A stretch of DNA of 11,361 nucleotides, taken from Limnobacter sp. Lineage in GTDB: Bacteria; Pseudomonadota; Gammaproteobacteria; Burkholderiales; Burkholderiaceae_B. Each line of letters opens with the position of its first letter. Position 1 is the stretch's first letter. The DNA lies in contig JAAURO010000025.1 of NCBI GenBank assembly GCA_012032215.1, forward strand, positions 1-11,361, in the 5' to 3' direction. Of the stretch, positions 2,009 to 9,120 are shown piece by piece. Under the pieces are notes generated by a model that was not told the DNA's origin, ran no database searches, and saw nothing but the letters and a program-made list of their open reading frames with translations. The position numbers and the translations under genes are program-made.

Positions 2009-2461
2009 TCAACTACTCAATACGCCAGACACTAATACAACTAAACCCGTTACCCCCCCTATAATCGTTGATATGCTAACACCACTTATCACGTAGTTCG
2101 AAAGTGGTGCCTTGTCAAGGCCAGCATCGAAGCTATTCGCAGTTATTTCTCCCAACTTTATAATACAACCGTCTATCGCCCCTACTGCTGCTCCTCCTGC
2201 TGCCCCCACGAGGACAGCTGCAAGCCCGCACGCTGTCACGGCGCAGCCACATCCTAGCGCATCGATGCACGCATCGGCACACTGTCTGATTTTTGTGTGT
2301 TCACGCCCCAATTTTGGGGTTGTTGTACTTGCATTTGCACTGGCATTTTTTGTTTTCCGAAAAGTGAAAGTAGTTGGTGACCCCCCCCAAAAAAAGTTCC
2401 TTTTTATTTCAAAAACCCGCATCCCAATAGCATCACGCTCGAAAGCACCGATTTTTGGCAC
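2009..2461 (-). CDS. Hypothetical small Gly/Ala-rich membrane protein (doubtful)
   Basis: This 150-codon frame opens at a GTG inside the 67-bp repeat; the first internal ATG is codon 14. Neither start has a good Shine-Dalgarno. The N-terminal 60 residues are polar and Thr/Lys-rich. Residues about 71-96 (with GAAGGAAVGA) and 123-148 (Ile/Val/Gly-rich) could each span a membrane, and the GxxxG-like spacing would suit helix packing. A Cys cluster (CADACIDALGCGC, 61-73) comes before the first segment. The frame crosses a T7G8 run on the coding strand, so its reading phase before about codon 28 is uncertain. No family is recognised. It is convergent with the SelO-like gene. A plus-strand frame over the same bases is about as long, which lowers confidence; a small hydrophobic peptide or toxin is possible but nothing proves it. 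Confidence 0.35.
   Translation of the reverse strand: MPKIGAFERDAIGMRVFEIKRNFFWGGSPTTFTFRKTKNASANASTTTPKLGREHTKIRQCADACIDALGCGCAVTACGLAAVLVGAAGGAAVGAIDGCIIKLGEITANSFDAGLDKAPLSNYVISGVSISTIIGGVTGLVVLVSGVLSS
2381..2395. repeat. Mononucleotide tract C8A7
   Basis: Eight C are followed directly by seven A on the plus strand (T7G8 on the minus strand). The tract falls inside the minus-strand ORF 2009-2461. A G8 run of this kind can slip during replication or be miscalled in sequencing, and either event would change the frame of that ORF. Confidence 0.8.
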
Positions 2462-2506
2462 AATCCTGTGCCGAACGCTATGCCCTATTGTGGTTTTCTT
2501 GCTATA
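2440..2506. repeat. 67-bp direct repeat, copy 1
   Basis: This copy matches bases 5925-5991 in the same orientation at 66 of 67 positions (C at 2485, A at 5970), and similarity ends sharply on both sides. It contains a hairpin at 2457-2472: stem GGCACA/TGTGCC, loop ATCC. The last codons of the 64-aa gene, including its TAG, lie within its right end. With copy 2 it brackets the four-gene accessory module, which suggests the module came or moved by recombination at this sequence. It is not recognisably an attC, tRNA or dif site. Confidence 0.85.
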
Positions 2507-2696
2507 GCCTCAAATGAGGCCCCAGATACGCCACATAAATACGCTTGCCTACGGCATCAGGATAAAAATGCATTCGATATCCACTGGGTAACTTCACATG
2601 ATTTTCGCAATACACTTGTCGGCCATCGTCCAGCCAAAACATTCGCTCTTTTTTCTTTCTGGGGTCATTTTTAACACTGGATGACTCACCGCTCAC
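2502..2696 (-). CDS. 64-aa hypothetical protein, last gene of the accessory operon
   Basis: The gene starts with GTG and its first four bases overlap the TGA of the preceding gene (GTGA), so translation is probably coupled. The N-terminus is short and charged (DPRKKKERMF). The rest looks like a compact beta-rich domain: WLDDGRQVYC, then HVKLPSGYRMHFYPD, then RIYVAYLGPHL. The alternating HxKL / RxHFYPD / YLGxHL pattern resembles the C-terminal end of longer proteins found in defence-type operons, so this may be the detached C-terminal domain of the 260-aa upstream protein; that is from memory of the pattern, not a search. The stop lies in the direct repeat. The coupling and clear codon structure make it credible despite its size. 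Confidence 0.6.
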   Translation of the reverse strand: MSGESSSVKNDPRKKKERMFWLDDGRQVYCENHVKLPSGYRMHFYPDAVGKRIYVAYLGPHLRL

Positions 2697-3477
2697 CTCT
2701 GCCGCAAGCCCAACTCTTTTAAATACTCGTGCCGATACTCAGCGTATTCACCGGTGCTCCACTTGGCAGCAAACCACTCCAACACATGCAGTGTATCCTT
2801 AGCTTTCAACAACACATCTTGCCGTGCAGACCAATTTTGCAAAGCAGTGCCAAGTTGATCGGAAAGTAAAATCAGGTGCGGAAAAAATTCATTTCTTTGT
2901 TGCCAAATCTCTTTGGCGCTGCCAAGTAGCGCATCGCGGCGCTGTTTTAGTTCTGCTTCATGAACATCAAGACTGGGTTTATCAAACAGATTTAACACCA
3001 CTCCTTCTCTTTGCTCCAATGTTGCATGAGCCTCAAGAACCCAAACCTGAATACGGGCACTCTGCCAGGCTGGCTGAGCAGTAAAACTGGCGAGAAAAGT
3101 CTCTAAATAAAATGCAGCCAATAACACCGGTTTACCTGAACTCTCGCCGCACAAGCCGACTTCGAGATTCTCTATGCTGCTGCTCTCAACAGCTTCAAAA
3201 AGTGGCTGCTTGGTTTCCAACAATTTTAAGAATCGCCACCAATCTCTAAGTTCAGGAACGGTGCCTGCCACAGCATACCAATCACGTACACAGTAGTCCT
3301 CGGGCCAACTCCACGGCCCATCAGGGATTTGTCTTGGTCCTCATCGACCAAAAGAATTTTTAAGCCGTATCTCCGGCAAACTTTGAGTGCCTCAAAAAAA
3401 GCCAACAAACCCTTCTCGGCATCCTGTTTGCATGCAAAAGGCAAAGAGTGGTGGTTCAGTACAAGGCTATGGCTCAT
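2693..3477 (-). CDS. Unrecognised protein of about 260 aa in the DUF262/ATPase operon (one frameshift)
   Basis: The ATG at 3477 overlaps the TGA of the ATPase gene (ATGA) and is preferred over the longer frame that begins at 3531 inside that gene. The first frame runs through LLVDEDQDKS. Near 3324-3326 (CCC on the coding strand) one extra base would join it to a frame reading PDGPWSWPEDYCVRDWYAV and on to the stop at 2693. The corrected protein is soluble and rich in Trp, Leu and Glu, with no signal peptide or membrane span. Visible marks are LVLNHHSLPF at the N-terminus, an acidic Trp-rich segment at about 47-65, and a mostly helical second half ending in basic residues (KELGLRQR). I recognise no family. 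Its place right after a DUF3696 ATPase suggests it is a partner or effector subunit of that system; this is inference. Confidence 0.6.
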
Positions 3478-4582
3478 AGCAGTTGGTCTAGCTCTTTGTC
3501 CCATTGGTCGAAAAAGCCATCTGGCCAACAATCCATTCTGCCGTGTTCATCAATTTTTGGGTACATCACCTCAGAAGCATGAATTGAGTTGTGCACATCA
3601 CGCTGTAAAAAGAACACCTTTACACAACTTGCATCAACGATTTGTCGTTTCACTGCTACCCGGATACCATTCAGAAAATGGTCAGAATGGGACTCAACCA
3701 TCAACTGCACACCACTTGTTGCGGCAATGGCGCACAATTTACCCATCAGTGACTGACCAGCCGGATGCAAATGCGATTCCGGATTTTCAATGATGAGCAA
3801 ATCACCCTTGGCAGCACTCAATATGCTGGTAACAACAGGCAACACATAACTCAAACCAAAGCCTACATTTTGTGGTTTAAACTCTTCTGTTGTTTCTTTA
3901 CCTTGATTAAAGGAGTAACTCAGGCTTGCGGAGTTAAATTGAGGCTGTGCCACGGCTTTGATTCTCAGGCCGGGCGTAATATCTGACATCCAGGCTTCAA
4001 TATTTGCCAACAAAGTGGTCGCAAGTGCCTGGGGGTGTTTTAAAGCTTCAATTTCAAGCTCTTTGGCCCCATTGACCGCAATAAAATGCACCGCAAACTC
4101 ACCATGATGCCCCAATGACTTTAAATCTCGAATATGAAACTCAGACAATTGGTGGTGGCTTTGAGGCCCCAATCTGTCTGCACTAAGATATTGAAAACTG
4201 GAATTAAAAAGGCTCAATTTTGTGAACGTTCATCAAGACCTACTTCACGCAACGGCAATAAGTCAGAATCGTGCTGATAGCCAAATTCAAATTTCACTGG
4301 TTTTTCAAACTCACTCCATTTAACGGTAAAAACAATTTCCTCCTGCGCACTAAAACTTGAAAGTGCATCTTTTCCAGTCCCAATGTTTGCATAATCTCCA
4401 TTCAGCAATAGCCCTCTGCTTTTTAGTGTATTTCGCTCATTGGATTGCCGCAATAACAACAGGCTTTGTATCAAAGTTGACTTACCCATCCCATTAAGAC
4501 CAGAAAACAAATTCAGAGCACCAAGTGGAAAGCGGGCATCGAGCAAAGTTTTAAAATTTTTAATATGGATAAACTCAAGCAT
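3474..4582 (-). CDS. AAA/ABC-type ATPase with DUF3696-like C-terminus (one frameshift)
   Basis: This is an OLD/SMC-like ATPase of about 370 aa. The first part (4582 to about 4219) starts MLEFIHIKNFKTL, the usual opening of this class, followed by the Walker A motif GLNGMGKST at residues 28-36. Near 4218-4221 (AAAA on the coding strand) one extra A joins it to the second part, which has FQYLSADRLGP, a signature-like NVGFGLSYVLP, Walker B with the D-loop (DLLIIENPESHLHP) and a switch His in VESHSDHFLNGIRV. The end, GRMDCWPDGFFDQWDKEL, is typical of DUF3696. Known relatives couple ATP binding to a partner nuclease or effector. Its start overlaps the end of the DUF262 gene by 8 bases and its end overlaps the next gene by 4. 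All ATPase motifs survive, so a functional enzyme is likely if the break is a sequence error. Confidence 0.85.
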
Positions 4583-5706
4583 TCAGTACCTCTTTAATCA
4601 GTTCTTCCACTTTTTTATAGCGCGTCTCAACGTGTTCTCTCTTCTGGGTCGAATAGGTAATTGAATCAAAAAACTTGCCGTCTTCCAGCAAGGCACGTGT
4701 TTTACTCTGAAATTCGTCTTTTTTATCAAGCAATTGCTTAAACTCGGCGGACGAAAGCTTGGCCATCGTAACCATCCACACTTCAAACAAGGTTGAATTC
4801 TTGAAACGCTTGCCAGAATTTAACACTGGCTTTTTTCAAATCCATTTTCGCCGAGTAGTTGAAAACAACGTTGGATGGCTGTGGAGTAGTGGTGTTTAAA
4901 CTCCTTGTGATGGATGTCATCTCCTTCTTGAATGTCTGCCATCGCTTTGTCTAGAAATGAGGCCATGTCTTTTTTGTAATCGCCATCCAAGTAGTTAAAC
5001 CGATAAAAAGCCCAAAAGCGCAGCACCAGCTCCTGGTCTTTCATGCGCGTGGACAAGTCACCCAACATGGCTTTGGTGCACTCCAGGTTTGCCAGTTCTT
5101 TTAGCAAGTCGCGCTCTCGGGAATTGGCCATTGCATTGCGTATTTCCTGGTTATTTAGCATGAGCCCACCGGTATTTATTCGGCGAAACACAGAGTACTT
5201 CACCTCTTTGGGTGTACCTGGTTTAATCATGTAGACGGTAACGGGACACTCTTCGATACGGCGCTGATATTGCCGAGGCAGTTTGTCAAAAGTCTTGCCA
5301 TTGAGGTCCGTTAAAAACTCAAGACCGGTTAGGCGCAGGTCTCCATCCAAAACAAATTTTTTAATGCTAGAAAGACGCTGCAAACCATCGACAATCAGCC
5401 AGTTGTTTTCATCCGATGCATCAAAATAAAAAACGGGCATGGAAATCGAATCAAAATAGACTCGATTAAGCGGCTCATTTGTGGGCTTTTCCACAAATTG
5501 GCATGCCGCTGAAAATCAGTATTCATGTCAATTTCTTTGTTTTTTATGCGCTTGATCAGCGTGTCCAGCGATTTAGGCTCTACCACAATGTCAATGTCAG
5601 CCGGGTTAAACGGGTGCATTACTTCGTCTAACAGCTCAACTTCCCCATCGCTAGAACCCGGTTGGCTCAACTCTTCTTCCAGTTCGCTTTCTTGGTGATC
5701 AGCCAT
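4575..5706 (-). CDS. DUF262 family protein (GmrSD N-terminal / ParB-like fold), two frameshifts
   Basis: DUF262 domains occur in GmrSD-type restriction enzymes and other phage-defence proteins, with a ParB-like fold and an NTPase or nuclease role. A good AGGAA Shine-Dalgarno lies 5 bases before the ATG at 5706. The acidic N-terminus (about 30 aa) leads into the domain. Family motifs in the corrected product are NTDFQR (62-67), DGLQR (about 107-111), RRINTGG (about 175-181) and LNNQEIRNA (about 184-192). The C-terminal part has LFEVWMV and a KxxxF.SIT.ST-like helix typical of this group. Two single-base breaks split it: near 5439-5443 (FPCP should run on to PVFYFD) and at 4831-4836 (six A on the coding strand; seven restore the frame). 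Corrected length is about 377 aa, normal for stand-alone members. It is the first gene of the operon and lacks the DUF1524 HNH half of GmrSD. Confidence 0.85.
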
Positions 5707-5785: not shown

Positions 5786-5920
5786 TGAATTTTAACCAAT
5801 GTTTTCTTATTCACCAACGGAATAAAATATAGCAGGAAAAATATAATATGGCATAGGATTTCCGATTCTACTTTCTTGCCCTGGCACTTGGGGCATGCCA
5901 CCCGGCTAAGGCGTTGCCAT

Positions 5921-5934
5921 GGTGCGAAAGCACC
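5921..5934. other. Hairpin with GAAA tetraloop at the edge of repeat copy 2
   Basis: GGTGC-GAAA-GCACC forms a perfect 5-bp stem with a GNRA-type loop on the plus strand, followed by GATTTTT. It straddles the left boundary of the 67-bp repeat; in copy 1 the left arm is altered, so this stem is lost there. The T run makes it terminator-like for plus-strand transcription, but no plus-strand gene precedes it closely. It may mark the original, uninterrupted form of the repeated element. Confidence 0.4.
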
Positions 5935-5991
5935 GATTTTTGGCACAATCCTGTGCCGAACGCTATGCCATATTGTGGTTTTCTTGCTATA
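5925..5991. repeat. 67-bp direct repeat, copy 2
   Basis: This is the second copy of the repeat at 2440-2506, in the same orientation with one mismatch. It carries the same internal hairpin (5942-5957, stem GGCACA/TGTGCC, loop ATCC). It begins 17 bases after the stop of the EpsG-like gene, so it marks the border between the polysaccharide cluster and the accessory module. Confidence 0.85.
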
Positions 5992-6007
5992 TAAAAATTT
6001 TCCCAAC

Positions 6008-7090
6008 TTATTCAGTTTCTGATGAAATAAACAAATAATTGCTGTAATTAATATACGCAAATCCCGAATTGGAAAAATAAAACCAGAACACGGCTACCGC
6101 AATCAGAAACACGCCTGCCCCCAAATACACAAACTGGCTGCTGCTTTTCGTTTTTGCCCAAATCGGGATGCATCCAAAAAAGCACACCGACACCGGGAAC
6201 AGGTACATGGAAATCCGGCTAATGGCAGTAGAAGCCACCATGGCACCTGGAATCAGGGCTACCGAAAACAACGCCATGCACAGCAGCAAGCGGTTCAGCC
6301 CCCGTGCCCAACCACCCCTAAGCCACGAAATGACAATCATCAACCCCGGGCCGGCGTTAAACAACAAATGGGCCAAGGCACCACTGGCCTCCACCACTTT
6401 GCGCTGGTCGTCACCACCACGCAAGCCATACAGTTTGTCGTAATATTCAAACCGATCCATGGTTTCGGCTGACAAATAGGCGGCTGCAAACAATGCGGCT
6501 GCCAAACCCAGTTTGATGTACACACTTTTGCGCAGTTCAAGAATAACAAACAGGGTCATTAACATGGCGCTGGTGTGGCACAACGAGGCCAGGCCAATAA
6601 AAACCAGCCGTCTGAATACGCCGTATTGATACCAGTGGGCCACCAGGTACAACAAGATGCCTGCTGCCATGGCCTGCCGGTTGGCAGACATGGCAAAGGT
6701 GAAGACACACAGTGGCAAGGCTGCCAGCAAGCCTGCCCAACGGTTGGGCAAGCTGTTGCAAAACGCAAAAAGCCCTATGCAAAACACGGTAGAGGAAATC
6801 AGGTTGGCAACATGGATGTCAAAACCCAGGTAGTTGGCAATGTGCATGGTGAGGTAATACAACCACTCGGTGTAATCGAACACCTGGGAAAAATGTTCGC
6901 CTTTGACGCGCTCAAACTGGGCCAGGTAGTTGTTCCAGTCCATGCCCACGTGGTGACGAAAGCCAATGAAAAACACCAACAGCACGAATGCAAATTTCCA
7001 GATGGGTTCGTCGTCGCGGGCGTTAATGCGATCGTTTTTCAGTGCGCCCATGCCAAATACAAAAGCCATTAACATGGAGTAGTAAATCAT
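6008..7090 (-). CDS. EpsG/Wzy-like polysaccharide polymerase, 360 aa
   Basis: This is an inner-membrane protein that most likely polymerises the repeat units of the surface polysaccharide made by this cluster. It is intact and hydrophobic nearly throughout, with about ten membrane spans and no cleaved signal peptide. Marks of the EpsG family are FRHHVGMDWNNYL at 44-56 (the usual R-x-G-x-D-x-x-Y loop), NRQAMA at 137-142 and HTSAM at 172-176. A larger hydrophilic loop (about 210-235, with YGLRGGDDQRK) is probably periplasmic. The ATG overlaps the TGA of the asparagine synthase gene (ATGA), and GGAAAG upstream can act as ribosome binding site. It is the last gene of the operon. Polymerases of this type are very diverse, so the linkage it makes cannot be told. 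Confidence 0.8.
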   Translation of the reverse strand: MIYYSMLMAFVFGMGALKNDRINARDDEPIWKFAFVLLVFFIGFRHHVGMDWNNYLAQFERVKGEHFSQVFDYTEWLYYLTMHIANYLGFDIHVANLISSTVFCIGLFAFCNSLPNRWAGLLAALPLCVFTFAMSANRQAMAAGILLYLVAHWYQYGVFRRLVFIGLASLCHTSAMLMTLFVILELRKSVYIKLGLAAALFAAAYLSAETMDRFEYYDKLYGLRGGDDQRKVVEASGALAHLLFNAGPGLMIVISWLRGGWARGLNRLLLCMALFSVALIPGAMVASTAISRISMYLFPVSVCFFGCIPIWAKTKSSSQFVYLGAGVFLIAVAVFWFYFSNSGFAYINYSNYLFISSETE

Positions 7091-9120
7091 TGCTTCTTTC
7101 CTTCATTGTGACCAAGCCAATCCTGAAACATGAGCACACTCCACAACTTGGCAGAATGATCAAACCGGCCCGACAAATGCTCGCGCCAAAGTTTCTGCAC
7201 GGGCTGTGAATGCAAATACCCCTGCTGCTCCAGGTGCACGGGTTGCAGTAAACTTTCGGCCCAGTCGCGCAGCGGACCACGCAACCACGCCGCCAGTGGA
7301 ATGGCAAAACCGGCTTTCGGGCGCTCGATTAATGCCTGGGGCACGTATTTGTACAGCACCTGACGCAAGGCCCATTTACCCACTCCGTTGCGGATTTTCA
7401 TGTGCATGGGCAATCGCCATGCCACCTCAGCCACACGGTGGTCCAGAAACGGGGCACGGGTTTCCAGGCTGATAGCCATCGCGGCGCGGTCTACTTTGCA
7501 CAGAATGTCGCCTGGCAGGTAGCTGAGTGCATCGCGGTACATCATGCGGGCTGCAAAATCATCCATGCCCGCGCCGGGCAAGGCAAGGTTCAGGGTAGAA
7601 AAGCCTGTACTGTTGCTGTGGGCTTTAACCAGGGTTTCTGGCCAGCGCCATTCGCTGACCAGGCTTTGGTAAAACTCATCGGCTGATGCAGTGCACTGTA
7701 TGCGATTGGCAAGTTTGTGCAACTTTTCACCCACGCGGATGACCCCACCCACCCCCGCACCAGGGCGGCCGTGTTTCAAAACCCCCGCCAACGTGTCCCA
7801 CGCCGAAGGTGGCAGCATTTTCAGAGCATGGGCTGCCATGTTGCGTCCAGTACTGCCCATTTTCCCAAACACATTCCACATGCGTGCGCCCAGAAATAGC
7901 GGTTGTAGCCACCAAAAATTTCATCGCCCGCGTCGCCCGACAAGGCCACGGTGGCATGTGCACGCGCAGATTGGCACACCAGGTGAGTGGGAATTTGCGA
8001 GGAGTCGGCGAAGGGTTCGCTGTACATGCCGGGCAGATCTGCAATTACATTCAGTGCATCTTGCGCGGTCAGCCGCAATTCGTGGTGGTTGGTGCCTAAG
8101 TGCCGGGCCACCGCGGCAGCGTGGGCGGATTCGTCGTAGCCGGGAACATCGAACCCCACGGTAAAGGTGTCTATTTTGCGGGTGGCGTTTTTCTGCATGA
8201 GGGCCACAATGGTGCTGGAATCTACCCCGCCCGATAAAAATGCCCCCAAGGGCACATCTGCAAGAGTTTGGCTGCACACTGCCTGCTCCAGCACCTGCTC
8301 TGCTGTGTGCAAAGCTTCTGCTTCATCGTGAAACACAGCGTGCTGGGCTTTCTCGATGGTTTCGCGGTAACTCCAGTAACTGCGCGGCTTAAACCCGGGT
8401 TGTGGATGTTCAGCCTGCGGCAATACAGGCTGCAGTTGCCGGGCATTTAATTCCAGCACGCAGCCCGGCTGCAGTTTGTAAATGCCCTGGTAAATGGAAT
8501 GCGGCTCGGGCACATAAAGATAGCGAAAATAATTGCCAAGCGCGTTGGGTGCAGATGGGGTTTTCAAAACCGGGGAAAGCCTTCAGCGCTTTGAGCTCTG
8601 AACCAAATACCAGCACCTGGCCCGTTTGGGGTTGCTTGCTTTGTACCCAGCCGTAATACAGCGGTTTTTCTCCGAAACGGTCGCGTGCCAGATACAGTGT
8701 GCGCGACTGCGTGCACCACAGCGCGAGCGCAAACATGCCCACGGTTTTTTCCAGCGTGGCATTTATGCCCCAATGCTCGAAGGAGGTCAGCAGGGTTTCG
8801 GTGTCAGAGTGGCCGCGCCATGCCATGGCACCAAACTGTGCTTGCAATTCGCGGCGCAATTCCAGGTGGTTGTAAATTTCTCCGTTAAAGGCAATCACAA
8901 AGCGTTCTGTGGCGCTGTGCATGGGTTGGTGCCCAGCAGGCGACAGATCCAGAATGGCCAGGCGCCGGTGCGCCAGCCCTATCTGGCTTTGTGTATCGGC
9001 CCAATACCCAAACGAATCGGGCCCTCTTGAGACCATTTGATCGGCCATACGGGCAAGGGTTTCCTGGGGGGGGTGCTCGGGCACCACGGAGGAACGTAAA
9101 AAACCGGCCAAACCGCACAT
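7087..9120 (-). CDS. asnB: Asparagine synthase (glutamine-hydrolysing), polysaccharide-cluster type, two frameshifts
   Basis: It uses glutamine ammonia and ATP to amidate a carboxylate; in glycan clusters the target may be a sugar acid rather than aspartate. The N-terminal glutaminase is complete: Cys2 nucleophile in MCGLAGF, then RGPDSFG, HRRLAILDLS, FNGEIYNH and LARDRFGEKPLYY. The synthetase half has the PP-loop LSGGVDSS, then TVGFDVPGYDES, SGDAGDEIFGGYNRY and KVDRAAMAISLETRAPFLD. Two breaks split it. At 8557-8560 (CCCC on the coding strand) one more C joins GFENP to SAPNALGNYFRYL. Near 7883-7888 one more base joins RYFWA to MWNVFGK. Corrected length is about 678 aa, near the usual 620-660. 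All catalytic motifs are present, so the enzyme would work if the breaks are sequence errors. It starts 11 bases after kdsA with no clear Shine-Dalgarno. Confidence 0.88.

Follow-up and report, generated by a model that had tools for sequence, protein, structure and literature searches.

Contig C149 of a Limnobacter sp. draft genome (1.94 Mb, 306 contigs, 66% complete) was analysed over its entire length of 11,361 bases, which is called the window here. It carries a compact operon on the minus strand (5706..2502), and the question it raises is whether this operon encodes an undescribed anti-phage system of four genes, as a preliminary description had proposed, or a copy of a system that already has a name. 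Based on profile matches, gene order and comparison with relatives, it is probably a Menshen (nsnABC) anti-phage operon of three genes, probably acquired horizontally, with frames that appear to be broken by small indel errors in the draft assembly.

Layout and identity of the operon

The open reading frames (ORFs) of the window were scanned singly, piece by piece, against the Pfam and PADLOC profiles. Those of the operon are spread over several frames, and their assignment is as follows.

4575..5706, minus strand: nsnA, in three frames (5706-5395, 5494-4820 and 4826-4575); DUF262/GmrSD_N protein
3474..4582, minus strand: nsnB, in two frames (4582-4214 and 4217-3474); ABC/OLD-like ATPase with a C-terminal DUF3696
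2502..3477, minus strand: nsnC, in pieces in ORFs 3531-3226, 3271-2693 and 2696-2502; putative effector
2502..2696, minus strand: the so-called fourth gene, a 64-aa ORF corresponding to the last 64 residues of NsnC

The ORF list and the Pfam matches confirmed the compact minus-strand operon at the position given earlier, with ORF ends overlapping by 8, 4 and 4 bases; the last of these overlaps falls within nsnC. Pfam identified GmrSD_N (DUF262), AAA_15/AAA_21 and DUF3696 in the pieces, in agreement with the earlier reading of a DUF262 protein followed by an OLD/SMC-like ATPase with a DUF3696 end. The PADLOC profiles assigned the genes, in order, to NsnA, NsnB and NsnC (PDLC03877, PDLC03878 and PDLC03879). 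The expect (E) values were 2.1e-24, 6.3e-73 and 6.7e-18 for the three pieces of nsnA, and 9.5e-28 and 8.4e-85 for the two pieces of nsnB. A DGLQR motif was located in the middle nsnA piece, while NsnB contains a Walker A motif (GLNGMGKS), a Walker B motif (LLIIENPE) and the DUF3696 domain (Pfam E 2.2e-18).

NsnA, NsnB and NsnC are taken by us to be the products of the Menshen genes. In agreement with this link, the available text of a review presents Menshen as a DUF262 gene with a predicted OLD-type protein (PMC10952713). All three proteins, their order and the compact overlapping arrangement are alike in Menshen and in the window, where a tight A-B-C operon was found; there was no systematic difference, the window copy being frame-broken in the assembly. 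With the NsnA, NsnB and NsnC profiles all fitting, the claim that the gene set matches no named system could not be upheld. A literature search on the name NsnB returned unrelated papers only.

Relatives were collected using the 247-aa NsnB piece as query and one genome per species; 171 stretches matched, 128 were confirmed and the best 80 were kept as loci. The nearest are those of Neptuniibacter marinus (L027), Vibrio lentus (L028), a Marinomonas sp. (L029) and an Enterobacteriaceae isolate (L030), which are 88-90% identical to the window over the 247-aa piece. Such closeness across genera points to a horizontal spread of the operon. The gene nsnA adjoins nsnB in 76 of the 80 loci (it was not found in L046, L055, L078 and L096), and 75 have a gene downstream that shows the N-terminal motif of NsnC, loosely N-x-x-S. 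The five loci lacking the latter are frame-broken (L046), end with the contig (L075 and L106) or have no ORF that was found (L078 and L102). The third gene thus does co-occur with the first two, as had been expected.

nsnC, the apparent fourth gene and the frame breaks

Four genes had been counted at first. ORFs 3 and 4, however, match successive parts of the single NsnC profile PDLC03879 (305 positions), which is covered by the three nsnC pieces at positions 1-50, 69-244 and 248-304. In L027-L032, NsnC is a single protein of 325-326 aa, and NsnA is likewise a single protein of 375-377 aa. Over its full length, the 64-aa ORF aligns to residues 263-326 of the L027 NsnC, and it keeps H295, R303, Y319, G321 and H323 (L027 numbering); on the predicted model it would belong to the RelE/YoeB-fold domain of NsnC. 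Among the 80 loci, 50 (L027-L033 included) have the segment matching this ORF within the ORF that holds the nsnC start, four have it in a separate ORF, and in 26 it gave no BLAST match.

The separate ORF in these four loci, together with the 4-base overlap of the ORFs as read in the window, could be taken to mean a true four-gene variant in which NsnC is split into two polypeptides. This is very improbable. The four loci (L037, L046, L047 and L086) are drafts with ORF overlaps of 37 to 116 bases, as expected after a frame break; the split point falls inside a folded domain of the predicted model; and frame breaks also occur in core genes of the same draft genome. Based on one NsnC profile running across the pieces, one protein in the relatives and the survey of 80 loci, the four-gene system was rejected. 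The proposal of an ATP-gated anti-phage module stands in part: the operon is very probably anti-phage with ATP-dependent control, but the two small system-specific subunits are one protein.

Alignment of the L027 proteins to the window revealed two frame breaks in nsnA, one in nsnB and two in nsnC. Five breaks within 3.2 kb, and a repeat element overlying the nsnC stop codon (2502-2504, provided by the edge of the left flanking repeat), would suit a decayed Menshen operon in which the breaks are real mutations and the locus is non-functional. The same sort of breaks was, however, observed in genes outside the operon. The asparagine synthase gene of the window (9120..7087) extends across three ORFs with two frame changes, rpoB on contig C247 of the same draft switches frame, and so do GTPase domains of translation-factor type on C47 and C74. 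Other such GTPase domains in this draft appear whole, for example C47:2744-3331. Since it is unlikely that all those core genes are dead, small assembly errors are the simplest account, and the frame breaks of the window look like assembly errors. Every motif that was searched for is intact, as are the toxin-domain residues that were checked. Decay of the operon is unlikely, given that rpoB and two translation-factor GTPase genes are broken as well.

Distribution and genomic setting

Seven of the 80 loci (L027-L032 and L045) reproduce the 8- and 4-base overlaps of the window exactly. In a Rhodobacteraceae draft (L036:3513-5744), NsnA and NsnB form one frame of 743 aa, which may reflect a gene fusion or an error in the sequence. 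Among 72,556 plasmid records, 45 hold a relative of NsnB; among 50,697 phage records, 16 do, and in two of these the match covers at least 80% of the protein. No plasmid DNA close to the first 6,010 bases of the window was found. The NsnA model matched in four of 15 congeners and in one further member of the family (L021-L025). Judging from ORF lists, with NsnB not tested, these five appear to pair an ORF of DUF262 length with one smaller ORF instead of forming nsnABC.

A type I restriction locus houses nsnABC in L027 and L028: hsdM-hsdS stands on one side of the operon and hsdR on the other, and hsdS and nsnA overlap by 8 bases; L027 has in addition a Schlafen/AlbA-type gene between nsnC and hsdR. 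The tail of hsdS is found directly upstream of nsnA in L030. Matches to these hsd proteins were found in seven of the 80 loci, three of which are the sources of the queries; only 44 loci are at least 10 kb long for this comparison. For the sequence upstream of nsnA in the window, the local alignment to hsdS was set against 1000 shuffles for each of six loci: 4 reached it for L027 and 1 for L030, as against 703, 456, 566 and 146 for L028, L029, L031 and L032, respectively. This is a weak hint that the window operon may carry a faint hsdS scar. Menshen might be imagined as a guard of type I restriction, which would sense the loss or inhibition of restriction, much as PARIS senses anti-restriction proteins, and free a RelE-type ribonuclease (RNase); we consider this a long shot.

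Outside the system proper, the operon is bracketed by 67-nt direct repeats.

2440..2506, no strand assigned: left 67-nt repeat, 99% identical to 5925-5991
5827..5992, no strand assigned: right copy of the element; its two 30-nt ends form an 87% inverted repeat

The ends of the element are inverted (TATAGC...GCTATA). With 40 of the 90 candidates scored, the genome search listed 62 matches to the repeat in this draft genome, counting partial and overlapping matches as well, and none in the 15 congeners. The repeat reads as an amplified element resembling a miniature inverted-repeat transposable element. Its inverted ends and the 62 matches listed in the draft genome leave an interpretation as integron attC sites or as borders of a mobile defence cassette unsupported.

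The neighbours of the operon in the window are genes for EpsG, asparagine synthase, a DAHP-synthetase-I-family protein and a polysaccharide pyruvyl transferase. A frame-broken gene at 168-1951 on the plus strand showed a weak match to the protein adenylyltransferase SelO (best E 2e-4, below the cut-offs); among the 40 genomes searched, its only further match (31% identity) is on C74 of its own genome. On the minus strand, a 150-aa ORF (2009-2461) with hydrophobic stretches rich in glycine and alanine had no Pfam or PADLOC match. Its listed start lies inside the left repeat, and the true start may be further in.

Fold of NsnC, proposed mechanism and related systems

A confident predicted model of the NsnC of a relative (predicted local distance difference test score, 92) was compared with known folds, and its C-terminal third grouped with the RelE/YoeB/HigB toxins at moderate scores. 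In sister operons there are NsnC variants with a Pfam YoeB domain. The window-type NsnC had no Pfam YoeB match, the search of the NsnC profile by sequence against solved structures gave nothing up to E 1, and the N-terminal domain showed no clear fold. A RelE/YoeB fold of the NsnC effector is supported by the predicted model and by the profile matches in variants. In seven loci (L082, L084, L098, L099, L100, L101 and L103) the N-terminal motif of NsnC is kept and the C-terminal ends are unlike the window type; Pfam YoeB was absent from the NsnC of those scanned, namely L084, L098, L101 and L103. Such divergent ends are possible further effector types.

A different division of labour would make NsnA and NsnB the DNA nucleases, as a restriction-like DUF262 enzyme and an OLD nuclease, with NsnC as adaptor. 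A predicted OLD nuclease has been suggested in print (PMC10952713, available text), and for the DUF262 protein a "putative nuclease function" has been (PMC11980606, available text). In the sequence search of solved structures, NsnB weakly matched an OLD-family protein, and the NsnA profile had no match up to E 0.01. Against this, Pfam matched neither DUF1524 (HNH nuclease) in NsnA nor Toprim in NsnB, whether in the window pieces or in the full-length proteins of L027 and L030. NsnB stops about 100 residues beyond Walker B, within DUF3696, and the toxin-like domain sits in NsnC. DNA nucleases in NsnA and NsnB are improbable, and on the predicted model the effector of Menshen would most likely be an RNase of the RelE family rather than a DNA nuclease.

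The ATPase AriA of PARIS is profile-related to NsnB, although the match of the window protein to the NsnB model is far stronger. As far as the text available goes, AriA forms a ring which holds the AriB toxin and releases it upon infection (PMC11455837). By analogy with AriA holding AriB, NsnB, as an ABC-type ATPase that lacks a Toprim nuclease, may relay a signal and keep NsnC inactive. NsnA, with its DUF262 domain (an NTP-binding domain of ParB/Srx type) and without a DUF1524 nuclease, may sense an infection cue, perhaps on DNA. Once freed, NsnC would act through its C-terminal RelE/YoeB-fold domain as a ribosome-dependent RNase cutting mRNA, and the resulting stop of translation would lead to abortive infection. 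Menshen resistance requires the DUF262 genes according to one review (PMC10952713, in the portion available), and in the accessible part of a 2026 review the mechanism is classed as "Unknown" (PMC12926258).

Several named systems share parts of this design. In PARIS the effector cuts RNA and halts translation (PMC11455837, available text), to which the role proposed for NsnC may be likened, but AriB is a Toprim/OLD-family nuclease and not RelE-like, and the two proteins named there have no DUF262 partner. AriB was not among the PADLOC matches of the third-gene pieces, which were to NsnC models only. GmrSD, BrxU and SspE have in common with NsnA the DUF262 domain with the DG(Q/L)QR motif, whereas their DUF1524 nuclease half was not found in NsnA by Pfam. 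OLD nucleases differ by a C-terminal Toprim domain that was not found in NsnB, where the matches were to AAA-type domains and DUF3696 only.

A further likeness is to ptuXYZ, which the available text of Gerdes 2025, "Mono- and multidomain defense toxins of the RelE/ParE superfamily" (PMC11980606), calls a novel potential defence locus. Its products are a DUF262 protein that lacks DUF1524, an ATPase of the P-loop type and a protein that combines a PIN-like with a YoeB part. The first two were found in this order in the window operon. The third is a two-domain protein with a C-terminal BECR (RelE/YoeB/HigB) fold, with which the fold predicted for the window-type NsnC agrees; Pfam YoeB does not recognise this NsnC, and ptuXYZ was compared by its description only. 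Two operons with a YoeB-type third gene matched the NsnA and NsnB profiles. Based on this gene content and these YoeB-type operons, ptuXYZ and Menshen are very likely two names for a single system. The name Menshen is absent from the main text of the ptuXYZ paper, and in the literature search the name ptuXYZ appeared nowhere beyond it.

Menshen is already a named system of three genes, and the window copy adds little that is new. The locus does carry a caution, in that what looks like an additional small gene in an error-rich draft can be a domain sheared off its protein. The identity of ptuXYZ with Menshen, if true, would join the defence and the toxin literature.
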